The notes under the pieces were generated by a model. It was not told the DNA's origin, made no database searches, and saw only the letters and a program-made list of their open reading frames with translations. A stretch of DNA of 17,113 nt from Cylindrobasidium torrendii FP15055 ss-10 (taxonomy: Eukaryota > Basidiomycota > Agaricomycetes > Agaricales > Physalacriaceae). The stretch covers positions 1-17,113 of the forward strand of contig KN880824.1 in NCBI GenBank assembly GCA_000934385.1, read 5' to 3'. Below are positions 1 through 17,113 of the stretch, piece by piece. Within the stretch, counting starts at the first letter, position 1. Each line of letters opens with the position of its first letter. The translations under genes and the position numbers were made by a program.

Positions 1-209
1 ACAGCCGCATTCCTTTCAAGTCACAGCCGCATTCTGACTTCGCCGATGGATGCAGCCCATGTCCCAATCTCCGAAAATTATGTATATGCATGCTCATCCT
101 GTCTTCAATCCCTGGCATCACTCCGCATTATTCGAGTCATTGCTATCCTATCCCGTGGTACGCTCGCTATGACTTGACCTCAGATACTGGACGGTGGCTC
201 CCTCGTCCT
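1..209. other. left edge, no gene seen
   Basis: No convincing coding signal is visible before the stop codon of the zinc-finger gene. The 12-bp string ACAGCCGCATTC occurs at 1-12 and again at 23-34 (period 22), so a small tandem repeat may run off the left edge. The rest is probably the 3' untranslated region of the minus-strand zinc-finger gene. Confidence 0.4.
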
Positions 210-519
210 CTAGAATTCCGCGTCTTTAGGCTGTTTCGCGTGGAACGGTCTGGCAAGCAACTCCGAGTGGTACTTGGAAATGTGCATGTACACTTCGTGC
301 GCATCCTTGAATGTGCGCTGGACACTCTCGTCCGAGTTCCCATCGCGCTGGGTGCAACCATACTCGCAGACGAATGGGTGTGATTTGTGGGTCTGCATAT
401 GTGCCTTCATTATGTCCTCGTCGTCGGAAGCAAAATCGCAAGCGGGGTTTTCGGGGCAGGCGGGGGGTGTCCAAGGCGCGGACTTGCTTGCTCTTGTATG
501 TGTTGGTGGAGGAGGACAT
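210..519 (-). pseudogene. small C2H2 zinc-finger protein, frameshifted in a C6 run
   Basis: Not a recognised named gene, but the translated part contains clear C2H2 fingers. The second frame reads CPENPAC, 12 residues, then HMQTH (C-x5-C-x12-H-x3-H), followed by a second finger that starts FVCEYGC and ends HISKYH. The best start is the ATG at 519 (MSSSTNTYKS), but that frame leaves the finger frame. Both frames join if the homopolymer G6 at 462-467 (C6 on the coding strand) were one base shorter; this would give about 102 aa ending ...KQPKDAEF. An intron does not repair it well, because the only GT..AG pair nearby would remove the first finger. It is therefore either a true frameshift pseudogene or a homopolymer sequencing error. 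A TATA box lies about 110 bp upstream. The role would be nucleic-acid binding; the target is unknown. Confidence 0.6.
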
Positions 520-628
520 CGGATTTGTGTTGTGTGCGATGAACGAGGATGGGGGTGTTGTTTGTGGACGTGATGTAATGAAAGAACAACGATTCAACGG
601 TTACAAGGATGCGGTTGCTCTGCGGTTG

Positions 629-637
629 CTTATATAG
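629..637 (-). promoter_or_regulatory. TATA box of the zinc-finger gene
   Basis: The minus strand reads CTATATAAG, a near-consensus TATA box, about 110 nt before the ATG at 519. The 9-mer GCGGTTGCT occurs twice just beside it (611-619 and 622-630). A second A/T-rich TATA-like stretch lies further upstream around 676-687. The placement supports the ATG at 519 as the start of a transcribed gene. Confidence 0.5.
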
Positions 638-964
638 TTTGTTCAGTGCCATGGTCTTTGTTCGAGTGGCTCTATTTTTTTATACAATTAGGCTACAGTA
701 AGACAGTTGTCTTTATGTACTCCTTATCGCTGCCATGCTTTATGCCTAACCGGATTGATTAAGCGTACTCGTCCAAGTCAAAATATTCAAGTTGGCACAG
801 TGCTCTGCTGAGGGTGTTAGTATGTTGCGGATGATGATTAAAATATCGTCTATGAGTATGCTTCATAGAATTACAACAGTGAGCGGTATACAAAGGACCG
901 ACTATGAATTTTAGATCCAATCGACGAAACACACAACGATCAACGGCCACGAGGAAAAGGTCTA
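638..964. other. intergenic; possible minus-strand terminal exon at 759-807
   Basis: This is mostly A/T-rich spacer between two divergent genes. On the minus strand a textbook branch site plus acceptor (ACTAACACCCTCAG, ending at 808) precedes an open exon ending at a TAA at 759 (last residues EYFDLDEYA). A GTATAC donor at 891 could join it in frame to an open stretch running up to about 950. No ATG starts that stretch and no product is recognised, so this is only a possible exon fragment. Confidence 0.2.
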
Positions 965-974
965 ATCACGTGAT
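965..974. promoter_or_regulatory. ATCACGTGAT palindrome (E-box type site)
   Basis: A perfect 10-bp palindrome with a CACGTG core sits 133 bp upstream of the ATG at 1107. TCACGTGA-type sites are recognised by bHLH factors of the Cbf1/Pho4 type and are common in fungal promoters. Just downstream is an inverted repeat GTGAGTG (1002-1008) / CACTCAC (1016-1022). I infer a promoter element of the plus-strand gene that follows. Confidence 0.45.
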
Positions 975-1034
975 GGATAGCTCCCTCCGTGTACACGCTG
1001 TGTGAGTGTCACAGTCACTCACCAACTGTGACTC

Positions 1035-1054
1035 CCACCACCACCACCACCACC
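1035..1054 (+). repeat. (CCA)n microsatellite
   Basis: Six perfect CCA units followed by CC, in the presumed 5' untranslated region or promoter of the gene starting at 1107. The length is likely to vary between strains. Confidence 0.85.
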
Positions 1055-1106
1055 GCAACGTTGACAATAACCCGTCGCATTTCCCCAACCCCGATATCGT
1101 TACAAT

Positions 1107-2307
1107 ATGTCCCAATCTGTTTATTACGCCAACTGGGAGGATACTTTGTCTGACGAGGAGGATTTGGACCTCGTGCGTGGTGTTTTCCTGGCAGTCTTTG
1201 TCTGCGATGACTGACAAGCAATTAGATCGACGATGCCGCTACCCAGCCACCACTCACCCAGGCCCCAGTCAGCCTCGGCGGCGATTCCGAGTCTGAGGAG
1301 GATGATGAAGAAGATGTCCCACAGTTCTTTGACGCTGTACGTGACCTTTTTGCGTATTCCTTGACTGTAGCGACTCAACGAACAATTAGAGCGACGACGA
1401 ATATACGGAGTCGCCCGCCACTCAGGACCCCGGCCGTGGGCGCTACTACGTCGAAGAGGACGAGGAAGAGTACATTACATACCCGCCGAACTATCCAGCG
1501 CATTATGAAAGCCTGGACGAGTATATCGAGGACCGGGAGAAAAAGATGAGAGGCGACGCGGAAGAGAGCCATCTCCTTGAAGAGTCCCTCCCAGCGCAAC
1601 CGGCCGACATTGAGATGGAGGATGGTGTCGAGACCGTCAAGAATGAGTCCGAAGATTATAACACAGCCAGTGTTTTTGAGGAACACTCAACGTCGCAGGA
1701 CAACAACTCGGACGAAGATGATATCCGCATCGCATCTCAGTATGATAATGACGAAGATGCTACGCAGAGAGACGACGTCGATATGCTACCCCCGCAGGAC
1801 CCCGGATTCTATTTCCAGGGTGTAGAAATCAGCATCGAGGAGATCGAGGCATCGACCGTGTTCTGGCAGTTGCCGGGCCAGCCAAACGAGACCATGAAGC
1901 TGGAGGACTATGCGGGTCGGTGTCGCCAAGAAGCACTGCGGCTGGCAAAGTTCTGGCTCAATCAAGGATGCAGGTGCATCGATGGACGCTGGATCAAGTG
2001 TATCTTCTCGCAGGAGGAGCTGCAGAGGGCTAGGGAGACCGAGAGGCGCAAGAAGGAGAGGCGGCGAGAATTGAAGAGGATTTATTTCGCAAGATACCCA
2101 CTCTTCATAAGTCAAGGGTTGACGGAGGACCAGGCAGTGGCGAAGCTGGAAGAGATTGAGGCGGAGGCTAGGGCTTGGGACGCTAGATATAAGAGGAAAC
2201 AGGACGAAGAAGAGGAAGAGGAAGAGGAGGAAGCGACGCTCGGGTGTGTTTTCTCATTTTTTCCACCCATGCGTAGGTCAATCTGGCGAATAAGCTTGTC
2301 CTATTAA
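1107..2307 (+). CDS. acidic coiled-coil protein of unknown function, 3 exons
   Basis: Exons are 1107-1172, 1226-1336 and 1390-2307, giving 364 aa. Intron 1 has a GTGCGT donor, a CTGAC branch site and a TTAG end. Intron 2 has a GTACGT donor and a TTAG end. Both are 53 nt and both keep the frame, which supports the ATG at 1107 (MSQSVYYANWEDTLSDEEDL). The first ~190 residues are very rich in Asp and Glu and look disordered. A more ordered part follows (around FYFQGVEISIEEIEA and the WLNQGCRCIDGRWIK segment), then a long charged helix and a run of nine Glu. No family is recognised. The 3' end is uncertain: a GTGTGT..CAG intron would replace the last residues by a short GDT tail. It faces away from the zinc-finger gene and lies outside the co-oriented minus-strand block, so it is probably a host gene. 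Confidence 0.72.
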
Positions 2308-2847
2308 CAGAGACACTTGACGAATAGCTTAATGGTCTCATCTGGCAAATGAACTTGATGTGCGAACGGGGTGGCTCAAGGGCTTGCTTGCTGTCGGCGG
2401 TGTCCCTTCGTCGTCGCTGGCAGCGACCATGAGGTCGCAAGGCGGGACCCTACGCTAGGGTTAAAGGCTTATCACCCAAATGGGACCGGACTTGGGCGAA
2501 AAGGGGATCGGACGTGGTGAAATGCCACGCGGGTGGAAGGATATTGGGCTATGGCCAATTATGGGGTCGATCACACCTCCCTAGTCACGGGGAGCAGTGC
2601 ATGTGCAAGGGTGAGGAGGAGGAGGACTGGCTCTGTGGCGTCCCGTCACCAAGTCCGTAAGCGCACTGAGTGCAAAACATGCCATCAATGACACACATCA
2701 TGAACCCAGTGATTATTTCCGGGGCAGGGTTCAATGTGAACACAAGCAATAGCATGGTGGCGAACAAAAAATTATTACATTGCAAACCGATGCAGTCCAT
2801 AGGATACGTTAGAGGGGATGTGAGTCCGAGTATGCCTCAACGTAAGC
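2308..2847. other. gene-poor spacer at the left of the minus-strand block
   Basis: I see no supported gene here. The 3' untranslated regions of the convergent genes on either side probably take up part of it. A 71-codon minus-strand frame (2585-2800) starts with ATG and has a hydrophobic stretch, but it lacks any family resemblance or splice context. The left part contains a cluster of inverted repeats, described separately. If a mobile element ends on this side, its end is probably in this spacer. Confidence 0.4.
2413..2559. repeat. cluster of five short perfect inverted repeats
   Basis: Within 147 bp there are five: GTCGCTG-G-CAGCGAC (2413-2427), ACCCTA-CGC-TAGGGT (2447-2461), CCCA-AA-TGGG (2475-2484), CGTGG-7 nt-CCACG (2513-2529) and ATTGG-7 nt-CCAAT (2543-2559). 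Each stem is perfect. They could be transcript 3'-end structures or protein-binding sites near a transposon end; neither is shown. Confidence 0.5.
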
Positions 2848-3520
2848 TCAAATGCGGAGTACGTCTACTAGGCACAGAGGGACGAGGGATTTAGTACGAG
2901 TAGAGGGAAGCCACTTGGCATACCGGCGAGCACATGCTAGTGTCGCACGGTACGACTCGGCCTGCGCGCGCAATTCTCCCGATGAGGGCACGTCGGCCGG
3001 GAGTTCCCCCCTCCGCTCCGCGTTGTCGAGCGTGGCAGCTACGTCCTCGCAGATTTCGATTTGCGCCGTGATGTGGGCAATGGACTTCGCTAGGTCGTCT
3101 TCGAGTTGGCACATTTCACCATGGACACGGGAAGCGGCGAGCACCTTGATGCGCCAAGCCTGGCAAACTGCGACGCGTTGTCAGTCTGAAAAAGGACAAG
3201 GACCGTTATGACGCACATTCATGGCCTCCCTCGCGCAACTCCAAGATGACTGTCTCCATGTCTGATGTCCACCCATCCCGTCCATAAATCGCAGAGCGCA
3301 CCCGCCATTCGAGGGAGAAGAGCTCCATAAAAAGATTGTCTCGCTCTTGCCTCTTCGACGCCACAACGCTGGGGAGTTGCTTCACTGCACCTTGTTGAGC
3401 CATGCCCAAACGAGCTGCATCAGCCTCACCAAACGTATCGACCTTGCAGCTGCTTAGACGGATTAACGACATTCTGTCGTGTAGAGAATACGGCGGTGCG
3501 GCTGAGATCGCGGGGGTCAT
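2848..3520 (-). CDS. helical protein of unknown function downstream of the KDZ transposase
   Basis: Two exons (3520-3217 and 3167-2848) are joined by a 49-nt intron with a GTGCGT donor, an ACTGAC branch site and a CGCAG acceptor. The frame is kept and gives 207 aa. The start is the ATG at 3520 (MTPAISAAPPYS). No family is recognised. The sequence looks almost wholly helical, with heptad-like stretches such as MCQLEDDLAKSIAHITAQIE and no long hydrophobic segment, so a soluble coiled-coil protein is likely. It follows the transposase stop by only 124 bp on the same strand, so it may be a companion gene of the element. An alternative is that it is a detached extra C-terminal part of the transposase, but it has its own ATG and the transposase already has a complete tail. 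Confidence 0.62.
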
Positions 3521-3644: not shown

Positions 3645-6600
3645 CTATGGGGGTATGAACCCGTACACCAACTTCCCGGTAAGCCTCTCCGAGACATCGA
3701 CAATGGGCGTTGAGATAGGTATGGTTTGGTCCATGCCCTTGCGGGCAAACATCTCAAAGACCACCTCAGGCAGAAGGGGAACTAGATTGACCACGGCGCT
3801 GCGTGCTTCTTCGAACTTAGCATCGGCAGATTTCTTCATATCCTCGCGCAAACGCTGCTGCTTCAGCGCGTATGCTCGCGCACCTGCTTCGAACAACGGG
3901 TCATGCTGGCCCTCGAAACCGGCAGGGTGCGACCATTGTCGACCAGCTTCCGATTGGGAGCGCACGCCCCAAACCTTTGCCTCCGAGTCCATGGTCCTGC
4001 TGAAGTTGGTCATGTCACGCAGGGTTAAGTCGACTGCTTCCTGAGTTCGTCGAGCCCTGGCGTATAGCTTGCACCACTTGAGCCGGAGCGCTACAACGTT
4101 TCAACAGCACCCTCCCTCGAATAGATAGCGGCTCACCTGCAGTCAGCCCTTGGGACGCTTCAGCGCCATTGAGCTGCCTCCAAATCCAGCTTGGTAGCTC
4201 CTTATCGCGGTCTCGTTGGGTCTGCTGGTCCGTGACAGACTCTGGGGCGCTGCCTGCCACAAGTGGATCTTCCCGGAACCCTTTGATGTCGCCTTCCTTC
4301 AACTCCAACAGGGAATCTTTCCAAATCGGACTCGCACCGAGCGTGGCTAACACAAGCAGAGCTCGGTAATGCGTTCGGTACTCCGCCACTATGTGAGTTC
4401 TTTTGTCTGTGTGGTCGTGGATTGCGTCGCTGGAGCATGTGTTACCCTTCTGCCCGCGAACGAAGCGGCTGGTGAAAGCATAGAACGCCGCCCCCATCAA
4501 GATGTTTTCCCTGAGCGATGCCAAAGCGCTGTAAGATCGAGTTGCCCGCAGTAACGACTCGTACTCGACGAGCAGCCGGTCAAGTGCGTTCACTGGCGTT
4601 CCCATTGCTGACGGGAGCAGCAGCTTATCGTCGTAAGGCTGGGCGGCTTGCATGTCAGGCTCGTCGTCTTTCAGTCTCATGACCGTTGCTCGAGGCATGT
4701 ACACGGACTGTATTTTCTTGAAGTGCTTCATCCGACGACGCAGTTGGTTGACTTGCTCCACGTGAGTGGCTCGCTCAATGTCAGTGGCATGCGGTCGTTT
4801 CTTCAAGCCTGCCGCAGCAATCCTCAGCGTTGCCCTTCATCAATCGCGGGTGAGACATGTTTCTGGCTCCGGAAAGGACACTCACTGTCGCTTCTCGATG
4901 TTGAGTCCCTCTGTGATGAATTGACTGGGCGACATGGTGTGTCGCACAAAACCTTCGGCGATCTTCTCACCCTCCATCCTTGCTAGCGTTAATCGAATGG
5001 ATCCCTCGCCGACACCTGGTCAAATCATCAGGATACACACACAGCTTCTCAGAAGGAGCATACTAGGGCTGGCCTCTTCCTCAAACGGATTGGGCGCGTT
5101 TGCGGGGTCCTTCTCGTAAGCCTCCATGGCTGGGATCCATTCCCTCTGCACGGCCTGGGCCACCTGCTCCGTCGACATCATGTCGTTGTGGAAAACCATG
5201 AAATTCACCACGGCTTGAGCCCGTTGGGCTCCATATTCGTCGAGCTTTCGAACTAGGAAAACGGCTACGAGATGATCATCAGAGTTAGGGCCGCGGGAAA
5301 CAACATCAAGCTCACGAGCGCCGGTGGTCTTCTGCCAGTTGGCATCACCGATGTGGTCGTCAAGCGTGTCCGCTCGAGACCCCGCACCCATTTCCCGAGT
5401 GCTCGTCGCGGTTGGGTTGGTGTTTGCCCATTTTCGCTCGCTAGCCTCACCGTCCGCTAACCCCGCGCCTGGCATGAAATGCCATGAGTACCGAAATAAG
5501 CATCTCCTGATATGGCCGCCGAGATGAAACTTCCCAATGAGGAAGATGAACTGCTCGACCATCAACGCGGCGCCGTTCAGCCCTGGGGAGTACCCTGCCA
5601 TTCGTGCGAGCAAGTGTATAGAGTAGCTGCAGTTGATGTCGTAGGAGAAAATTACCAGAAGGGTTAGCACATAACAAAGGCCTCGCAGTAGGCAGAAGTC
5701 CATTACGGAGTGCCTGGCCAGGTAATGCGATGAGTTTTCAGCCGATGCTGGGTGAGATGAACTCACTCCTCCCCACGCCTGAGGTTCACCATAGAGGGCA
5801 GCGTGATGTCATGCCGCGCACATGTCAGTTGTCCTACTCCAGTAACCACCGCGCCTTTGCGCTCAATGGAGGCCTGCAGCACGGCGTTGTGTTGATTACA
5901 GGGCGGGGTGACTGGTATTTCTGGGCGCGCCTTACCGAACTCCTTCATATGCTGCGCAAATTCCTTGTCGTCAACCATGTAGGCGGCGCCGCGGTTCAGT
6001 GGCTCATCATCGACAGCTCCCTTGTTGTATCGCCGCAGGTGAAAGTTGGCGTCCATGACAAGTTGAGCAGAAAGCTCATATCTCCGCTCAGGAGGGGTCA
6101 CACTGAGCTGCAGTCAGCAATTGCAGCTGAATCCACTTCACTGGTCATACCGTATATCATCCACGGTAACGTTGACTCCCAAACGCGGACACATGGGGCA
6201 GAGAACGGCCAGTTCCCCTCTCTTCATGTTTTTGCGGCCATTGACCACATTGCCTAATCCGGACTGCTTACACATCATCAGATGGCGCCACATCCGTATC
6301 ATGTGCAGCCACTGCTGGTAGCGAAAGAGCTGAAGAAGTCAGCTTCGACAAGAAGAGACCAAAAGGGAGGGACCCACCGGTGGCAAAGAAGACACACCGG
6401 TGTTGTCAGTCAGTCGGCAGATATGTTTGAGGTAGGAGTAAGCAGATTTCTAGGACTTATGAGCTCACAAAAAGAAGAGGAATCAGGCAACGTACCTTGG
6501 ATACAAAGGACGACTGGCGGAATTCCCTGAGGGCCTCAAAGGTGGCGCAGGTCTGCGGGTCTGTGGTCGTAGCGGGAAGAAGACGAGCTCGCAGAAGTTG

Positions 6601-7528
6601 GACCGGTTTACTGAGCGACTGGCAACAGCAGAATTTGACAGTCACTCGATGCACCCCCGAGACATCGATGACGACCAAGGTTCTGTCTTCGTGGCCATGG
6701 CAGGTCGTGTGGGCAGGGTTTAGGTCGACGACTAGTCCAAGGGATGTCAGCTCCTCTCTGATGAAATGATGGCCTGTCCAACGCTGCACAACGAGAGGGA
6801 TGAGAATTAGTCAAGCAGTAAGTCTGCCACTGACTGACCTCAATTCTGTGTAGCCAAAGGTCCTGGTGTTTGGCCAGAAGGCAAGCCTGGCAGCGCAGCC
6901 GTTCGCAACGGCACACCTGGCACCTGAATTCACCCTTCCTCCCGCATGGGCACGAGAGACCTTCAGTGGGCGCTTCCATACGCAGGAGCTCGGCGAGCCA
7001 GCGGTCCGCATCCTCAAGGCTCCATAGCCCTACAACGTTATGCTTCTGAAGGCTGGTCGGATCGAGTTTGTTGACATGCAGCACACTACGCACCGAAGAC
7101 CGAGCACTCTCAGCAGCGACTGCCTCAGCAGCCTCCAGCAGATCAGGAGGCACATAGGCGTCTGCTTTTGCTTCATCCGCCATACGTTGGTCTCTTGCCG
7201 CCCAGAACAGGTCGACTACTCGTCGAACAGTGGGAGGCATAGGCTTAGCAGGAGTCTCAGCCACACCAGCGTCCATGAAGCTGTCAACCTCTTCCCCATC
7301 CCAATGCACAGGTCTTCGGAAACGCTCCGTCATAGAAGCGACCTCATAAGCAATGCGAGGACGTTTGGAACGAGACGTCCTCACAGTGACCCGATTATAC
7401 TGGGTAGGAATGGCAGGGGGTTGAATGTCCATCCGGGCGGAGGACCGAGCGGGGTTGGCTGCATCCTCTAGATCTTGTCGCTGACGCTGCTGGCGCAAAA
7501 TGGCCGCTTGGAGGGTCCGTCGCGACAT
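3645..7528 (-). CDS. KDZ-family transposase, full length, 10 exons
   Basis: Predicted DDE-type transposase acting on the ends of a KDZ DNA transposon in the nucleus. Exons: 7528-6839, 6783-6496, 6449-6378, 6329-6151, 6102-5767, 5713-5316, 5264-5064, 5015-4886, 4822-4137, 4090-3645; nine introns of 46-63 nt give an unbroken 1141-aa frame. After a ~190-aa disordered N-terminus comes the Cys/His cluster known as CxC2 (C193, C195, C203, C206, C208, C213, C216, H221, H227), then the family landmarks VIDVSGVHRVTVKFC (~268-282), TTTDPQTCATFEALR (~302-316), LTDNTG, and CPMCP (~394-398). The catalytic candidates are D427 in MDANF, D547 in SYDIN, and E611 or E614 in DGEASER, with KFHLGGHI (583-590) between the last two. 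A helical tail with PNPFEEE and a Leu/Arg-rich region follows. Family members are about this size. The acceptor of intron 8 (GAG) is weak, but the frame supports it. No inactivating change is seen. Confidence 0.9.
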
Positions 7529-7697
7529 GGGGCGGGAAAAAGCAAAACTGACGACTTGAGTGGAGTCACAGCAGTGTCACAGATAACCTTCCATATGTGG
7601 AGGGACCATTGATCGAGAGTGTTGGCTCCACGTGCCTGAGGCGTCACAAAAGCTTGCTGGACCCGACCTTGGAGGCGCTATTACCAACTCATCCATC
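7529..7697. promoter_or_regulatory. divergent promoter region between transposase and 110-aa ORF
   Basis: These 169 bp separate the ATG of the minus-strand transposase (7528) from the ATG of a plus-strand ORF (7698). Both genes, if both are real, must share this promoter. There is no clear TATA box on either strand. The repeated motif GTCACAG/GTCACAG (around 7565-7583) and a CCATATGTGG site (7591-7600, one base away from a CArG-type box) are the only visible candidates for factor binding. Confidence 0.35.
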
Positions 7698-8030
7698 ATG
7701 GCCGGACTATCCTTAGCAGAAAGGAACCTGGAATACTTCCTGAGGAATCATGTTGCCCTGCTGCAATCCCCAAACTCTCACGCCCACATCATCCGAGCCA
7801 TCCGGTTTCTGCACATATGCTCGGAGGCCATCGCCTCCGACTCGCAGCGGGCGCTTATGGACCCCAACAGTGAGTGTCTATTGTCCAAGAGCAACTTAAT
7901 CGGCCTCATGAAGGACCCCCGGGCAGCCTCTCAGGAAGATTTCAACAGCCTCACTTTACGACACCAACTTTGTTCGGACGCGTTGAGAATCATGGGAACC
8001 GAAGTAGTGCAGAGCTTATCATTGAGTTAG
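7698..8030 (+). CDS. small helical protein of unknown function, divergent from the transposase
   Basis: A single-exon frame of 110 aa, starting MAGLSLAERNLEYFLRNHVA and ending at TAG. It is the only plus-strand coding candidate inside the minus-strand block, and neither strand holds a competing gene here. The composition is protein-like (ordinary use of hydrophobic residues, predicted helices, two Cys, no low-complexity run) and the ATG lies in a fair context (CATCATGG). No family is recognised. The frame stays open upstream of the ATG to about 7632 but without another ATG. Divergent placement against the transposase would allow shared control; a regulator of the element is one possibility, which is pure inference. 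It may also be a chance ORF. Confidence 0.5.
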   Translation: MAGLSLAERNLEYFLRNHVALLQSPNSHAHIIRAIRFLHICSEAIASDSQRALMDPNSECLLSKSNLIGLMKDPRAASQEDFNSLTLRHQLCSDALRIMGTEVVQSLSLS

Positions 8031-8124
8031 TGGCGGAATGAGGACGTTTGGCTACCTAGGAATGACAGGGCCACAAGCAATGAATTGTCGGTTTCTACGT
8101 AAAGTCGTTACAATTCTACATCGA

Positions 8125-8991
8125 TTAGGATTCGGGGGGGACGTCGGCGTCCTGGGACAGCTTAGCGAAGTACCAAATCAGGTCCAAAAGCCTTTCAAAC
8201 AACTCCCCAGGATGCCGCTCCACAGACAGGCCCTCCTTCAAGGCCAGGAGGACACGAGGGCGGCGGCGAATTTTAACGGCTAGTACTACGAGGTCGTTGC
8301 CGGTCTGAACGCCCATTTCCATGAAATGGGCGTCGAATCTCAACAGCTGACGCGACTCAAGCAGCTTCCTGACTGTGCCGGGCACGAAAGAGCTCTTGTT
8401 CTCGAGAGCGGCCCATCCTTTCGGGGACTCCTGCAACGCCTTCTCAAACCGCTTCTGGCTCTCAGAGGAGCTGTATGCTGCCAACGGAGTCAGAGCCCTG
8501 CGGAAACGATAAGAACAAGGGACTCACCAATGTATGGGGCGGCTCCCACTCCGACCTGAACTCCCTGCAGCCTCTTCGAGCCGTTGCGTCGCATAAGTCC
8601 CCGTATGTGTCTGCCCGAACAATCAGCAACGATTCAAACGTCCCCAATGGATGGCGCACGCCAAGCCCGCCCTGGCATTCTGAGTGGCCATGGCCACCAA
8701 GAGTCGGCGGCCTTTCAGCCTCTTCAATGGGTTGACTTCACGCACGTACATGCGTTTGGGATCCATACCGGGCAGGACGACGGTCTTCTCCAAGAAGGCT
8801 TGATATCCAGGCGACGCTGTGTCCAAATCGGCGACGCGCTGGTCCTCGCCAGGAAAACCTGCCCAGAAAAGGAGAGATCCCCCGTCGCCGAGAGAGGCGT
8901 CCTCAATGTCAATGTCGGGAGAGGGAAGACGAGGTGTCGCATCCTGGACCTCTCTGGTGCCAATGTTGGTGTCTGAGTCAACGTGTTCCAT
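8125..8991 (-). CDS. protein of unknown function between dioxygenase and transposase
   Basis: Exons 8991-8660, 8610-8528 and 8477-8125 join in frame through introns of 49 nt (GTGCGC..GCAG, GCTGAT branch) and 50 nt (GTGAGT..GCAG, CTGAC branch), giving 255 aa from the ATG at 8991 (MEHVDSDTNIGTREVQ). An ATG 18 codons upstream, at 9045, is also in frame and would add MSSYLIPSLSLS. A separate open stretch at 9152-9042 (MGGQSPPEFGRG) could be an earlier exon, but I found no good splice to connect it. The protein has an acidic N-terminus, a mixed middle part around LLFWAGFPGED and VREVNPLKRLKGRRLLV, and a helical C-terminus ending in LLDLIWYFAKLSQDADV. No family or catalytic motif is recognised. It lies 260 bp after the dioxygenase stop on the same strand. 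Confidence 0.62.
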
Positions 8992-9224
8992 GGGCAAGCG
9001 ATGGTGGTGGGAAAGCGAGAGGGACGGGATTAGGTAAGAGCTCATGAGCAGCCAACTCGGAGCTTCCTGTCAGGCTTAAGTCCTTCCAGTGCCTCGGTTT
9101 CCACGAGGACCGGTATGCCTCTGCCAAATTCAGGTGGAGACTGGCCTCCCATGGAATGGGGCTTCGGGACGGTGAAAACAGGAGAGGATTGTGAAATTAT
9201 GCAGTATGAAAGGAGGGGACTGCG

Positions 9225-9267
9225 AAATTAGGCGGTAGCGGTACTAGAAATTAGGTAGTAGCGGTAG
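9225..9267. repeat. two 20-bp direct repeats over the dioxygenase stop codon
   Basis: GAAATTAGGCGGTAGCGGTA (9225-9244) and a copy with two changes (9248-9267) are spaced 23 bp apart. A weaker third copy starts near 9193. The dioxygenase stop codon (9251-9253) lies in the second copy, so the last residues (STTATT) and the tandem stop signals come from the repeat. Confidence 0.7.
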
Positions 9268-11536
9268 TAGATCGTACGTATTCTTGCCAATACATTCCCC
9301 TGAGCTTAAGCTCCTCCACATCACATCCGGTGTCCTTGCCCTGAGCTCGGGCGTTCTTCAGCGTGTCGGTGTCCAGCTCACTGGATTGAAACATGGTGGC
9401 CTGTATGAAGAAAACGCAGGAGCCTCTCGCTTGCATGCTGTCACTGAGAGGGGTGCAGAGGTGGCGGGTGGCGGCGGTCGGCTCAGTGGGGCTCACTACG
9501 ATGTCGACATCACGGAGGCGGGCTTTGCTGAGAATTTCATCCAGCTCGGCCTTGCGTTCGGGAGAAAGGAAGGGAAGCAAATCGTCCAGGTCTGCGAAGA
9601 TGTGAGCGAGAGAGCCTGAGGGTGGAATGAAGACTCACCATAGTTGAAGTGATAAAAGAGGGCGGAGGGATATGTCAAAACAACACCGGGGGGCAGCTGA
9701 ATGAAGAGGTTGGCATCCCAGATGCATAGCCAGCATTTCTCATCCGAGTTGAACACACCTGGTTAAGTCAGACACCGAGGGAGGAGAGGGCTAAGACGAG
9801 CTCACCGTAGATGAAGATGGCGCAGAGGCCGATGGCGATGTTCATGGCATCGACGTGGGGCAAGCATTTGACAAATCGGGAATCCCGACCCCAGTTGAGG
9901 CAAAAATTCCAAAATAGACCGTACTGGGGCGAGATCCCGTACTTGCGCTCCATATAGGTCTTGAGCTGGAAGTATCGTGCACGGACGCCAGGAAATTCGT
10001 CCAAGGTGGCGTTGACATACGATCTGGAGGGCTATGAGCGAGAGGGCATCCGATGCAAGTAATGATGGCTTACGTGACACGATACATGGGGCCATCCACA
10101 CGAAAAAGGGTAGCGAGGGCTCGCATGTTCTGGTGGTTCCTGTGCCAAGCTCGAAGCTCCGGGGTCTGAGAAGGGTTAGACGGGAAGCGACTGTGGGAGG
10201 GAGAGCTCACAATCTTGTTGTTGCGATCATAGCCGGAAATCTGGAAGAAGTGGGGCCCTCGGACCTGGTTCCCCTCCTCGACGGTGCAGCCCAGGACGAA
10301 CTTCTGGCACTCATACATGAACTGGGCCATGAAGGGACTCAGCTTGGTGGCGGCGTACTCCACGGTGAGCTCGGGGTTGATGAAGCCCACCAGAGCGGTG
10401 CGATAGATGATCAGCCGCCCCATGTTGTCGTAGATCTTGGTAGGCAACTGGCCGCTGGGGGGAGAAATGAGCGGGAGCCCAAGAGAGGGTGGCGGTTGGA
10501 GGACTCACGAGTTTCGAAAGGGCACCAAGACGACATCGGCCAAGTATTGCCCCAGCGTCCGAGCTTCCCACTTGGCGACCACATCAACTCCGATGTCCCG
10601 AACGACCTGTCGACTGCCCTGCCATCCACCATCAGCGGTGCGCACTTCCTCGACGTCGATGCCGGGCAGGTCGACCTCATCCGCGCCACGCCTGTCTCTC
10701 TTGCGTCGCCTCTGGGCCTGGTTCTTCATCTTCTTGTAAGCCTGGCGAGGTGTCATCTGCGGAGCTCCGGCAGCGAGAGTCTGCCTCTTAGCGGAAGGCG
10801 GGGGCGAGCTGCCATCCGAGTGACGGGGTCGTTTCTTGGGGTTGGCCTGAGACTTGGAAGTGGCCTTGGAGGACGAGTGAGACCCGGGATGGCGGTCGGC
10901 CCAATGCGGATCGCGCGAGTTGGCCTCGAGGACAGCCACGATGATATTGTGGGCCACGAGGAGGTTGACCAGCCAAAGGACGGACTGGTTGGCGTCGGGA
11001 GGAAAAGTGGGAGTCTGGGGGACGGACCCATCGCCAAATTCGGCCTCGGATAGACCTTGAGTGCAGTCGGGCGGGGGGATGGGCATGCGGTCGTAACTCC
11101 TCAAGGTCTTCTCCCATCGATCGGCGGCCAGGTCTTGTTCGGTCTCAGGACTGCGGGAAGGAGGTGTCAGGCGGAATTGAAGACGAGTGCGGCCAAGAAC
11201 GCACCTCAGCGAGTCAACCAAGGCGCCCGGAAAATCATGCAGGGCGCTATCGTAGCGATCCGTCGTCTCAGTGCGCGGGCGGCCATCCGAGCCCAGCTTC
11301 GACACCAGCGGCTCGAGCACGCAGTTGGCCACGTCCAGCCCAGGAGTTCGCAGACGCTGAGCGGGTCGACCTTCCACCGGCCGGCGTCGGACGTCAAGCA
11401 CGCCCTCAGCCTCCTGCCAATCCACGATTTCCCGCACGCTAGGCAGGCTGCGAGGACGTCAGCTCCTCTTGCGGTGGTTAGAACACAGGACGCACACAAT
11501 ATTGAGCAGCCTGCTCAGGCCGCGGGTGACTATCAT
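9251..11536 (-). CDS. TET/JBP-like 2-oxoglutarate/Fe(II) dioxygenase
   Basis: Probable nuclear dioxygenase; TET/JBP family members oxidise methylated pyrimidines in DNA using Fe(II), 2-oxoglutarate and O2. Exons 11536-11496, 11447-11205, 11150-10509, 10454-10211, 10165-10074, 10023-9806, 9758-9639 and 9591-9251 give 646 aa from the ATG at 11536; all seven introns (45-54 nt) keep frame. An N-terminal helical part and a basic low-complexity stretch (PKKRPRH near 200, RRRKRDRR at 242-249, likely nuclear signals) precede the catalytic double-stranded beta-helix. Iron ligands: H477 and D479 in LPHVDAMN, and H530 in LFYHFN after the turn LPPGVVLTYPSA. R589 in QARGSCVFF is the candidate 2-oxoglutarate-binding Arg. 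The HxD..N spacing and the PG-x-V turn fit fungal TET/JBP-like enzymes, but another 2OG oxygenase subgroup is possible. The true 5' end is unresolved and may reach 11885. Confidence 0.72.
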
Positions 11537-11647: not shown

Positions 11648-11687
11648 GGCCATCAAACGCGTCGTCCGGCCATCAAACGCGTCCCGA
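11648..11687. repeat. 20-bp tandem duplication near the dioxygenase 5' end
   Basis: GGCCATCAAACGCGTC occurs at 11648-11663 and again at 11668-11683, a period of 20 bp. Twenty is not a multiple of three, so within a coding exon it would shift the frame. It falls exactly where the 5' gene model of the dioxygenase cannot be joined. Confidence 0.75.
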
Positions 11688-11885
11688 GCTGATGAGGAGG
11701 GCGGGATGGTGGGCTTGATGGCTGGAAGTCGGGAAGTCGGGCGCGAGCGAGCCAGCACGGCGGTCGATGCTTTGATCGGAGGGAGCGGGCCTCGGTGGCC
11801 GACGGCGGGGATGTGAACCAGGCCTCCGGAAGGGCGACGGCGACGCAAGGGGTGAGGGGGCGAGGGGAGAAGGAGATTCCGCCAT
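11676..11885 (-). other. candidate first exon of the dioxygenase gene, Pro/Ser/Arg-rich
   Basis: An open frame from the ATG at 11885 (MAESPSPLAPSPLASPSPFR) runs to a stop just before the 20-bp duplication. It lies about 90 bp downstream of a good TATA box and before the supported dioxygenase exons. Another short open stretch, in a different frame, reads PHVVRDLLTSRGAE (around 11640-11595) and could be spliced to the LLNIVLPSVREI exon by a GTAGCT..CAG intron. I could not find a clean splice linking all three pieces, so the start of the mRNA and protein is not settled. Confidence 0.3.
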
Positions 11886-11973
11886 AAGGAAGAGACAGTG
11901 CTTTGCCCGCAACCTTATGACGGAGATCTCAGCTGGGGACATGAGGGCGGGAGGATGTCAAAGCACACGGCGC

Positions 11974-11982
11974 ATATATATA
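11974..11982 (-). promoter_or_regulatory. TATA box of the dioxygenase gene
   Basis: The minus strand reads CGATCGTATATATATGCGCC, a strong TATA box between the stop of the upstream 530-aa gene (12292) and the first ATG candidates of the dioxygenase (11942 and 11885). With usual spacing transcription would start near 11945-11950. It argues that the two genes are separate transcription units. Confidence 0.5.
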
Positions 11983-12151
11983 CGATCGAGTACAAACACA
12001 GCCACTTGCACATGACTGAGGCTTAGGTCCCGAAAGCTCAGGGCTTCACTGCGTCACCCACTGGATGGAACCTCTCTCCTATGCATCGTCCGGCCACCGA
12101 ACATGATTCGAAAGTAGGGATGAGATACCGATATACGAACGAAATTCTATA

Positions 12152-12210
12152 GCACACATACGCGACCTCCGAGATAATACAGATGCACACGTACACGACC
12201 TCCAAGATAA
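12152..12210. repeat. 26-bp imperfect direct repeat, period 33
   Basis: The segment 12152-12177 (starting GCACACATACGCGACCTCC) recurs at 12185-12210 with three changes. It lies in the spacer between the 530-aa gene and the dioxygenase TATA box, on the upstream side of the promoter, so it could be a paired factor-binding site. The rest of the 11983-12291 spacer shows no supported gene. Confidence 0.65.
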
Positions 12211-12291
12211 CACACTGCAACGGGAGAGGGACGCAACGCGAAGAGGCTGACGAAGGCCACCATCCCAGCTCCTGAGCTCACCCAACCCCAC

Positions 12292-14287
12292 TCACTTGCG
12301 AGCTCCTCGGAATCGATAGGCGCCGGAGCCACAGTCGACATGGTGAATGTCCTCGTCGGTGAGGACGAAGCGAGAACCAAAAGCAGGCATCATCCTCCCC
12401 TGCCTCTGGGCCTTGGGCTTCTTCCACCCTCGACGCCTTGCCTGGAGCTCCCGATGCTCCTGGCTGGCCACTTCCTCGGAGTAGTAAGCGTGGTCAGCGT
12501 TACGGGCCCATTCATCGATCTCGGCCTGACGCTGCTTAGCTTGCTTGGCCTCCGCGCTGGCCTTGAAGGTGGCCAACAACACCGATCCCTCCCTACTCTT
12601 TCGACGGTCCTCCTCCATCCGGTCACCAGCTAGTTTAAGCTCCTCCGAGTCAACGGAGCGGGCGTCCTCACGGTCCAGAAGGCCGGGCTCAGAGGAGCCG
12701 GTGCCAGCAGGCAAGACGTCGTTGTCGATGCCAGCATCACTGGGATCGGACGGGGTGAGGGAAGAGAGATCGCTGAGAAGGTCGAGGTCGCTGAGGTCCT
12801 GATCAGCGGGCACGAAAGCCTCGGGCATGGCAGTCTTAGCACGTTTGGCAGCAGTACGCTCCACTGACCCACCGCTGTTGATGCGCTTGCTCCCAGCTAG
12901 TTCATCAGCAGGCCGCTGGTCGTGCTCGTCGGCCGTGGACGAATCTCCTGCAGAAGACGGGAGTTCGCTCTGGGGCTCCAACATGGCTTGGACACCCCCC
13001 CGGAGCTCGGCTAACGCGTCGGCCGCAGCTGACATGGCATAACCGGCTTCGAGGTCTGTCAGAGACGAGGAGCATGAGCATATGAGCGGCGGAGCTAAAC
13101 GTTGACGCACCTAAGTTCTCCTCCGTCCTGAGACTGACAGGGTGAGCAACAGGCGGGGGTCGAGCGACCGGAGACAAGTTCGGTCGAGCAGGTCCCTTAG
13201 GAAGGGCTCGCAAAGTGGACCTGGGGTACAGAGGGGCTTGACCGGTTCAACTACAGGAAAAAGCAAGAAGAATGCGGCCCACCGTGGCGCTTCTTGACGT
13301 ACACAGCGGGCTTCTGAGGCGGCCTCACCGCCTTAGTGGGATCCCACGGTCCTAGAGTGAGCGTGTTAAGCCGCCTTCAGATAGACGCTCTCAAGACATG
13401 CCTTCAAACGCAGCCTGGAAGGCGCTGGCGTCGCGCGCCAATCCGCCGCCCGAACGAGGCAGCAAAGCTTGATCTGCAAGGAAGCGTCGGTATGAACCAA
13501 GCACGGGCCGACCCTCAGGGAGTCGCGTCGCAGGAGCTGGGGGTGTCCCTGAAAGAAATGTTGAGCGATGCAAACGCAGCTCATAGCAAGCAACAAGCTC
13601 ACCCCCTCCTTGCACAGCTGGGGCTTGATCTTGGCTGTTTGCATCGGAGCCTGAGTCAAGAGTCAGCGTTCCATCGGAGGGAGAAAGAACGTGAGCATAC
13701 GAGAGGCATCACGGGAGGCAACGCGAGAGGCTAAGGGTTCGAGGCCCGATGGTGTTTGCTCGCCATGGATGGAGGCAAAGCCTGCCTCAGCGAGCTCCAT
13801 GATTCTGCCCACCAGCTGCGCAAATGGCGTTAGCACGGGTCATCTGCCAGAGAACCTGAAGCACCTCAACGGCTCGGACTCTGCCTACCGCCGTGTCAAC
13901 GTCGTAGGACTCCTGAGGGAAAAGCTCCGCGTGCAGGTGAATGGCGTAGAGGAAGAATAGGTGCCGTTCCCCGTTGAGTCCAGACTGGCGAAAATCACCC
14001 AGCAAAGCTAGGCCGAAGGCAGCCTCGCGTCGTCGCTAGCAAGCATGAGATGGAGAAGGGCTGACGCCATGGGAGAGACTGACGATGCCCTTAAGGGTAT
14101 GCTGAGGGCCGAATTAACGTGGCAGCTACCGCGCAGTGTGAGAAGGACGCACACATATGAGAAAGGCGCCGTCATATCTCTGGATATCCGCTGTGAAGTC
14201 GAACTCGTAAGGCCCATGGTCAAGCGAATAGTCAAACTCCTGCTGGTGAACTACTGGGTTCTCCGAAGGTCCTGATTCCAGCGACAT
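12292..14287 (-). CDS. 530-aa protein of unknown function, 9 exons
   Basis: Exons 14287-14153, 14101-14084 (an 18-nt micro-exon), 14035-13865, 13815-13701, 13650-13603, 13548-13402, 13351-13283, 13236-13111 and 13055-12292 join in frame for 530 aa. The start is MSLESGPSENPVV. Residues ~52-125 form an ordered helical part (GLALLGDFRQ, ERHLFFLYAIHLHAELF). The rest is mostly low-complexity, Ser/Ala/Pro-rich and then charged, with a basic patch ARRRGWKKPKAQRQGR before the end ...GSGAYRFRGARK. No family is recognised. Intron 6 (13401-13352) appears to be a rare GC-AG intron, since only that junction keeps the frame. The donor of intron 3 has two possible positions. The TGA stop overlaps a perfect GTGAGT donor, so a spliced read-through form is possible. 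The nature of the N-terminal domain is open; the C-terminal part could be a DNA- or RNA-binding tail. Confidence 0.62.
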
Positions 14288-14705
14288 GATGGGGAAGGAC
14301 AGCAAGCAGCTTTTCAGCCCATCGAGCTTATGTACCCAGGGGGGGCCGATACACCTTATTTCCACGCGTGGGCATGTGGTCGTTTTTGCGGACAAGAAAA
14401 GCACCTAAAGACCCTAGTGAGCCTATTTCAACGGCATTTGGGCTTAGGGATGCTCTCGGACGCCGGTGTCTCCCCTTGAAGCTCATTACTGCTCATCTCC
14501 GTGACACACTGAGGCCCACAGCCTTCCGCTTAGTCCTCAAGTGGTGTTCAAGCCCGTTCGAGGGTCAATTTCGCCTGTGCGACGCTTTGTGATCCTCGGA
14601 AACACGAAGTATACTCAAGAAGGGCTCATCATTGGTCGCAGTGGGTGTTGAGGGAATAGGGAATACTACATCAGGCATATACGCTACGCAGAGGCTTCGC
14701 CGGTT
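14288..14705. other. spacer between the 397-aa and 530-aa genes
   Basis: About 420 bp that should hold the 3' untranslated region of the upstream gene and the promoter of the 530-aa gene, both on the minus strand. The minus-strand frame stays open for 39 codons ahead of the ATG at 14287 but has no earlier ATG. No strong TATA box is seen. A 74-codon plus-strand frame here (14368-14592) has no support. Confidence 0.4.
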
Positions 14706-16020
14706 TCAGTCCGCGTACAGATCCTCCAAGTCATCCTCGTCATCCACCTCCTGGTTAGCAGGCTCCTCTTCGAGGGACGGCGGCACGCTGTGGCCGATGG
14801 TGCTCCCGTAGAAGTTCCAGATGTACTGGAGCTGGGAGGCCTCGAGGCGCCATTCGTGGAAGTTGGCGGCGTTGAGGAACATTGAGAACGAGTAGCTGTT
14901 CAGCAATGCGTTTTCAATGGGGATGCGGATGGCCCCGTGGTAGGCAAGCAGGAATGTGGTGAAGACGTCGGACCTTGAAGCTGAGCTCTCCTGGCGCGGG
15001 CCCTCCTGACGACGCGGGCCCTCCTGACGGCGACGAGAGGGGGAAGGCTGAGGAGTGATACGAGCTGTTGTGCGAAAGGGACCCAGGCCGCTGGGAGAGG
15101 CCAAGTTGACCGCCGATCCTAGGCGGGAGCTCACGATGCGACCAGCCTCCTCCGGCGCAATCTCCTCGAGGTCGGCAGCGCTCCTGCCTCGGACTCCATC
15201 GCGACTAGACAAGGAGGGGGTAGAAGGAGAGTCGGGAACCGGGCGAGTGGGAGAAGCGTTGCCCTGCTCGGGAGAGCCGTTCATCAAAGTGATGCTTTCC
15301 CACTCGGAGACAGCGGGCGCAAAGGCGGAAGACTGGTCCGGGTTGACGAATGGCACGTCGTCGTGGGAGGGGTTCCAGGGCGTTGCACGAGGAGGCGCGG
15401 TGTGAGAGCTGTCGTTGGACAAAGCAGGCGACCATTCGCGACGCCCCTCGGCCGAGGCGCCGCGAGTGAGCAGAAAGCGAAAAGCTCCGGAGAAATTGTC
15501 GAACACACCAGCCTGGCGGAACCGGGCCTGTGAACCTGCGAGGTTCTGACGAGCTTCAGCGCTGAGGTAGGTGTTAGGACAATGCATGAACTCAGAACCC
15601 CAAGATGAAGCAATGACTTACTCAGAGAAATGCATGACCACTCTATGGCCATACACGACGGCAAAGTACCACGACGATTCCACTGAAGCCTGGACTTGGC
15701 GGAAGACGCCAGCCGTTTCAAGCGCATTGACCAAGTCGCTAGGACCGCCGCTGATCAAGCGGTGAGAGTGGGCGATGACGGCGGGCTGCATGATTCGGAA
15801 GAACGCATTGGCCTCCTCAGCGGTCTCAAAGGGCCCGAATTGCATAGGAAAGGGGCTGCCATATCGGCCGTTGGGAATGAAAGCTCTGGGGATGTGATAG
15901 TTAGCTAGAGGCACAACGTCCAGCGGAGGTGGCTATCGGGACGTACGCGGTTCGATAGACACCTGCGCGTCTGTCATGGGAGAATTCGGAGGGATAGACA
16001 AGAACGTAGAAGCGGCCCAT
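14706..16020 (-). CDS. protein with possible tandem viroplasmin/RNase H1 N-terminal-like modules
   Basis: Exons 16020-15947, 15885-15622 and 15561-14706 give 397 aa; introns are 61 nt (GTACGT..CCAG) and 60 nt (GTAAGT..TCAG, CTAAC branch). The start is MGRFYVLVYPSEF. Two segments look like the small fold found at the RNase H1 N-terminus and in viroplasmin-like proteins, which binds RNA/DNA hybrids or dsRNA: residues ~1-60 (FYVLV, RAGVY, FETAEEANAFF) and ~92-150 (WYFAVVYGH, SDAEARQNLAG, a Phe/Ala-rich helix). The pattern YxVxxG..W/F..A..F is met only loosely, so this is a tentative call. A long Ser/Pro-rich linker follows, with a small RRQEGP repeat encoded at 14996-15029. An ordered C-terminal part contains IENALLNSYSFSMFLNAANF, and the last 25 residues are very acidic. 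It is first in the co-oriented series. Confidence 0.6.
14996..15029 (-). repeat. 18-bp in-frame repeat encoding RRQEGP
   Basis: GCGGGCCCTCCTGACG appears at 14996-15011 and 15014-15029. The period of 18 bp adds six residues (RRQEGP) without breaking the frame of the 397-aa gene. Confidence 0.8.
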
Positions 16021-16640: not shown

Positions 16641-17113
16641 TACCTCTAGATATACATGAGTGAGCAAACAAGGCTCGAATGATTTAGCAAGTTACGACTT
16701 TGACTGCACCTATGCTCTTAACATCTCATCCTTCTGCTCCATAGGGCGTCTACAGCATATGGGTTCAGAATATCGAGCTGAATGGTGACTCCCAACATAT
16801 GTGAGAGAGCGAAGGATGCTCGAACGATTTAGCAAGTTCGGGCTCGGACTGCACTTACGCCTTTGGTGTCTACGCGAATGAGCTTCCACTTTAAACATCG
16901 AGTTGAGTTACAAATATATGTGTGCGAGTGAAAGATGCTCGAACGATTTAGAAAGTTCGGACTCGGACTGCACTTACGCCTTTGGTGTCTACGCGAATGA
17001 GCTTCCACTTTAAACATCGAGTTGAGTTACAAACATATGTGTGCGAGCGAAGGATGCTCGAATGATTTAGCAAGTTCGGACTTGGGCTGCACTTACACCT
17101 TTGGTGTCTACGC
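16641..17113. repeat. tandem repeat array, 119-bp unit, open at the right edge
   Basis: The landmark GATTTAG starts at 16681, 16826, 16945 and 17064. The last two full spacings are both 119 bp; the first unit is 145 bp and strongly diverged. The two complete 119-bp units differ at only about six positions. Each copy holds a CGAAC-(GATTTAGCAA-like loop)-GTTCG inverted repeat. Degenerate repeat sequence begins near 16641. The array continues past the window, so the copy number is unknown. It looks like a minisatellite or the subterminal repeats of a mobile element, with no coding content. Confidence 0.85.

Follow-up and report, generated by a model that had tools for sequence, protein, structure and literature searches.

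A probable Kyakuja-like KDZ transposon of Cylindrobasidium torrendii with a TET-like dioxygenase as selected cargo

The association of KDZ transposons with TET enzymes in mushrooms was reportedly first described by Iyer et al. in 2014, and the literature now includes KDZ elements that have TET enzymes, as a preliminary description of the DNA treated here had assumed. According to the available text of one recent report (PMC12730594), elements of the Kyakuja lineage have 5'-CA...TG-3' termini without inverted repeats and a 7-bp target-site duplication; in Coprinopsis, oxidised methylcytosine is heavy around Kyakuja elements, and retrotransposons are marked too; and the PU- and PE-type TETs have moved between transposon superfamilies. 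Here, we analysed a stretch of 17,113 nucleotides (the window) of Cylindrobasidium torrendii FP15055 ss-10, which is contig C394 of a 29.3-Mb genome in 494 contigs. We consider it probable that the window holds most of one large Kyakuja-like KDZ transposon, in which a TET-like dioxygenase is selected cargo that most likely counters silencing by oxidising methylated bases of the element itself. The pairing of KDZ and TET is already known; the dioxygenase branch and the cargo look new. Our literature searches returned no paper on this dioxygenase branch or on a C. torrendii KDZ element in the text available, and an entry in Table S1 or the figures of PMC12730594 is possible.

The closest described relatives are the TET-carrying Kyakuja elements of Agaricomycetes (Kojima 2025, PMC12730594). 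On the evidence of the available text, these share with the present element a KDZ transposase together with a TET-like dioxygenase, a CA start and the 7-bp target duplication (here probable). By contrast, the present element has a six-gene cargo, its apparent last bases are TC instead of TG, and its dioxygenase showed no sequence relation to the CcTET/AG type in the searches made. With the PE-type TETs, as that text presents them, the dioxygenase has in common that it is divergent from the AG type, is detected by fold and not by sequence, and has relatives near more than one transposon superfamily within one genome; however, the PE hallmark is HxE, whereas the family of the window dioxygenase has HxD. 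CcTET of Coprinopsis cinerea (PDB 8jkk, 7w5p, 7vpn) is 12% identical to it in structural alignment, with no profile match. The KDZ elements of Cryptococcus (PMC12510652), also large, basidiomycete and flanked by target duplications, are ~11 kb long and are described with terminal inverted repeats, and no dioxygenase is mentioned in the available part of that report. The features of the window are as follows.

62..2263, left flank, host sequence that occurs elsewhere without the element (91% to C300 over 62-2263; 80% to C161 over 228-2262)
2257..2263, plus strand, TTTTTTC, probable 7-bp target-site duplication (second copy probably C397:6815-6821, C397 being the presumed other flank)
2264..2360, plus strand, right terminus, CACCCATG..., with 3 subterminal repeats of type TCTGRCGAATA
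2850..3520, minus strand, gene 6, ~208 aa, 2 exons, splice site approximate
3645..7528, minus strand, KDZ transposase, 1158 aa, 9 exons, with CxC2 and KDZ domains
8124..8991, minus strand, middle gene, 255 aa, 3 exons
9251..11536, minus strand, TET-like dioxygenase (by the fold of a relative), 646 aa, 8 exons
12293..14287, minus strand, gene 4, partial model (first 3 exons and last exon)
14704..16020, minus strand, gene 5, 397 aa, 3 exons
16794..17113, 119-bp tandem array, cut off by the contig end; contig C397 also ends in this repeat

The order of transcription on the minus strand is gene 5, gene 4, dioxygenase, middle gene, KDZ transposase, and gene 6. The preliminary description had drawn a co-oriented block at 3645..11536. 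Both of its genes lie inside these limits, but the real block is larger and extends from base 2264 to beyond 16020. The dioxygenase, which had been placed two genes upstream of the transposase, is indeed on the same strand; since one gene (8991-8124) intervenes, it is the second gene upstream.

The transposase model (7528-3645) contains zero internal stops. Its matches to the KDZ profile PF18758 (E 1.4e-49; 169.2 bits against a cut-off of 26.6; residues 423–647) and to the CxC2 profile PF18803 (E 8.4e-30; 103.6 bits against a cut-off of 27) are both far above the cut-offs; the CxC1 profile also matches, below its own cut-off. Three candidate acidic residues, Asp427, Asp547, and Glu611, are located inside the KDZ domain match, and we take these to be the catalytic D/D/E. 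A complete KDZ transposase with CxC2 and D/D/E, as first described, is therefore borne out. Besides the C29 copy treated below, the KDZ matches elsewhere in this genome are distant (27%–39%), with the exception of two pieces on C410 (2-313 and 15597-15905; 91% and 83% identical to the window transposase), which are possibly parts of another close copy.

The dioxygenase model (11536-9251) is equal in length to the database protein CYLTODRAFT_494872 (P0001) and 100% identical to it over the searched residues 300–646. The dioxygenase looks intact; the preliminary description had called both genes seemingly intact. The HxD motif, distal His, and C-terminal Arg that had been read from the sequence were located and are all kept across an alignment of 93 family proteins, in which counts were made only over proteins with a letter at the position: His477 (codon start 9857) in 76/78, Asp479 (9851) in 78/79, His530 (9651) in 87/88, and Arg589 (9427) in 76/81. 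The Asp479 position of the HxD is Arg in the one remaining protein and Glu in none of the 79. By analogy, Arg589 would be the 2-oxoglutarate-binding Arg.

The TET identity of this protein comes from predicted structure. With the model of a relative, P0019, the first 26 Foldseek rows and the first 15 VIA rows were all CcTET, NgTET1, TET2, or CMD1. The predicted fold of this relative is thus nearest to TET/JBP among solved structures, which supports a grouping of the dioxygenase with the TET enzymes and upholds the TET/JBP-like identity originally proposed. The hidden Markov model check proposed at the same time gave a divided result: the KDZ and CxC2 profiles matched, but the dioxygenase was negative for Tet_JBP and PF20515. 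Whether the dioxygenase was scanned exon by exon or as a full spliced protein, Pfam showed no match better than chance, and as it matches no Pfam family, the test came out negative for TET/JBP.

A second copy of the block is present on C29, which carries all 6 genes in identical order, listed here with the ratio of nonsynonymous to synonymous substitution rates (dN/dS, NG86) between the window and C29.

C29:76052-77435, gene 5, dN/dS 0.22
within C29:78505-80041, gene 4 pieces, dN/dS 0.22 for the last exon
C29:80964-83247, dioxygenase (P0002), dN/dS 0.099
C29:83508 to ~84330, middle gene, dN/dS 0.29
C29:84870-88742, transposase, dN/dS 0.067
C29:88886-89544, gene 6 region (DNA match), dN/dS 0.21
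near C29:90124, element terminus

The proteins of the two copies are 54%–83% identical at a synonymous divergence (dS) of 1.1–1.7, and no stop was present in the aligned C29 codons. The codons compared are those of the best match of each exon only, covering 160/230 and 137/216 residues in two transposase exons, residues 45–258 of 259 in the last exon of gene 4, and residues 46–99 of 101 in exon 1 of gene 6. The block is old, and every part of it is kept by purifying selection, which has been nearly as strict on the dioxygenase as on the transposase. The 4 other genes are constant companions of this pair in the element; Pfam gave no match for the middle gene, gene 5, gene 6, or the last long open reading frame (ORF) of gene 4. 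The pair thus recurs in this genome inside a conserved six-gene block, in keeping with the suggestion that the dioxygenase travels with the transposase. As the predicted fold of a relative groups with TET and the two genes recur together on C29, neither a placement among non-TET oxygenases nor a lone occurrence of the pair was found.

The right end of the element is exact at 2264. C300 reads ...CTCATTTTTTC followed without a break by GTGCTCCC..., whereas the window reads ...CTCATTTTTTC followed by CACCCATGCG..., and matches on C228, C188, and C296 (83%) start at window 2264. On C29 the element also ends in CACCCATG, with 2 of the window's 3 subterminal repeats at the same positions and the third, judged by eye, a variant; both copies begin with CA at this end. 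The left end probably lies on C397. The tandem array is shared with one other contig found, C397, at that contig's own end, and in the same orientation C397 carries, at 95% identity, the host sequence that follows the C300 break. The C397 junction reads TC-TTTTTTC-GTGGTCCC, so that TTTTTTC stands on both sides of the element if C397 holds the other flank. We infer a single insertion of ~24.6 kb with a 7-bp duplication, comprising 14,850 bases on C394 and ~9,770 on C397, plus an array stretch of undefined length between them; of the C397 part, 988 bases and the 21-base junction were examined. Apart from array repeats, the C397 sequence beside the array matches no other DNA of this genome, and the left half is therefore unconfirmed by a second copy. 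A left end of TG followed by TTTTTTC inside the window gave 0 exact sites and 8 with one mismatch (chance mean 2.55), and none of the 8 was read as a left end. Among the 25 longest of 59 inverted-repeat pairs in the window, none joins the 2264 end to a site near the opposite side. The C29 target duplication, GGGAGTC, was not found on the far side of that copy within C29:74801-76000, which starts in an assembly gap.

Elsewhere in the genome, the dioxygenase protein matches at least 12 contigs and KDZ at least 21. Both occur on 4 contigs (C394, C29, C278, and C465), within 5 kb of each other on 3, and the search found no dioxygenase relative on the other 17 KDZ contigs; the association test assumes uniform placement and is indicative only. 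The divergent C465 relative (35%) and the KDZ gene of that contig are on opposite strands. The C278 relative (27145-29231) shares its strand with Helitron ORFs (DUF6570, Helitron_like_N) that lie ~4 kb away, and a distant KDZ is 12.6 kb from it on the other strand; the C369 relative has a tnp2-like ORF, matched below cut-off, 3 kb away on the same strand; these scans covered 30 chosen ORFs near other dioxygenase copies. In a tree that kept 74/97 rows, each covering 200 or more of the 331 core residues, the C394, C29, C369, C278, and C345 dioxygenases form one clade (support 0.999), in which the KDZ-linked copies are sister to the C369 copy (support 0.868). Perhaps Helitron or tnp2 elements carry the dioxygenase too, although proximity without element ends is no proof; if they do, the dioxygenase has moved between superfamilies. 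Among the copies compared by tblastn, the dioxygenases at C345:10911-12958 and C278:27145-29231 resemble each other most (84% core identity), and Helitron ORFs were recognised near the C278 copy only.

In the transposon that we favour, the KDZ transposase would move the element and the dioxygenase would be standing cargo rather than a chance neighbour. With both proteins produced from one element, the dioxygenase would act on 5-methylcytosine, and possibly on N6-methyladenine, in that element's DNA, and its oxidation of these methyl marks would prevent host methylation from silencing the element. A host gene merely trapped beside the transposase, outside the element, seems very improbable: the C301 and C119 relatives do have ordinary genes as neighbours (phosphatase and rhodanese domains; F-box), and the ORFs scanned there included no recognised transposase, but C29 has the identical six-gene order with selection on all genes, and other relatives have a Helitron or a weak tnp2-like gene nearby. 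Alternatively, the cargo might create a novel modified base by which the element or its ends are marked or protected, in place of removing methyl marks. We regard this as unlikely, since CcTET and TET2 outscore CMD1 against the P0019 model and the companion genes match no Pfam family such as glycosyltransferase. Less probable still, the protein may now have other catalysis or none, as a nucleic-acid dioxygenase of the AlkB kind or a DNA-binding transposition cofactor; against this, nearly all family members retain the metal ligands, the Z-scores of the P0019 model to CcTET, TET2, and NgTET1 are 6–9 units above that to AlkBH3, and the dioxygenase dN/dS of 0.099 argues in the same direction.

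Several observations weigh against the oxidising cargo as we have described it. The fold search used a relative that is 34% identical to the window dioxygenase, whose own model, built from 11 sequences, was poor (mean pLDDT, the predicted local distance difference test, 44.3) and was left out; Foldseek TM-scores of the P0019 model to CcTET were only 0.39–0.54. The Tet_JBP (PF12851) and 2OG-FeII_Oxy_6 (PF20515) profiles had no match in the window dioxygenase or 7 relatives, and PDB searches with profiles of 11 and 32 family members (E up to 10) returned no TET entry; the 5 and 42 sequences returned (best E 0.25 and 0.0021) were chance or low-complexity matches. A remote sequence link to CcTET may lie below the sensitivity of these PDB searches. 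In the C29 dioxygenase, which retains the metal ligands, Gln stands at the Arg589 position, so that some copies may do without the activity, and the dN/dS ratios are rough because dS nears saturation. No KDZ match is present on 8 of the at least 12 contigs with a dioxygenase relative, and the two bases before TTTTTTC on C397 are TC, where Kyakuja is published as TG.

A wider proposition, possible but held tentatively, is that an unnamed HxD branch of transposon-borne TET-like enzymes exists across Agaricomycetes, missed by profiles and passed within its lineage among KDZ, Helitron, and perhaps tnp2-type elements, and that its member here sits in a ~24.6-kb KDZ element with 4 co-evolving genes as a possible anti-silencing or DNA-modifying set. 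If so, transposon-borne TETs in mushrooms are undercounted because sequence searches miss this branch. One small genome offers a comparison of KDZ copies with and without the dioxygenase, plus a copy with a changed cofactor residue, across which methylation is measurable, and the conserved companion genes provide tangible candidates for the means by which these elements withstand silencing.

A genome search with PF12851 gave no match, and control genomes gave none either. PF20515 matched other loci (C5:387962-388577, C438:5455-6066, C392:1955-2257, and C469:5755-6379; HxDND-type motif at 3) and none at the window dioxygenase, and KDZ matches are absent from all four of these contigs. The dioxygenase profile showed no relation to these proteins (E 0.52 against a profile of 4 partial sequences), and the latter profile itself retrieves no TET in the PDB.

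On C423, a distant KDZ gene (11663-13106) has a relative of the middle gene (7822-8058; 35% over ~80 aa) upstream of it on the same strand, and the contig has no dioxygenase match; the middle gene may therefore predate the dioxygenase as a KDZ companion. The CpG observed/expected ratios of the element (0.89), the left flank (1.01), and a C29 flank (0.93) differ too little for hypermutation to be argued. Repeated motifs outside gene 5 in the window (16794-17113) and on C29 (74840-75500), related only by eye (around TTCGAG), run into the contig end and an assembly gap, respectively. On the minus strand of C397 (15601-15880), an open frame starting MDKLGLDLIRLVLVDHL, without a DNA copy elsewhere, adjoins the array and is possibly further cargo.
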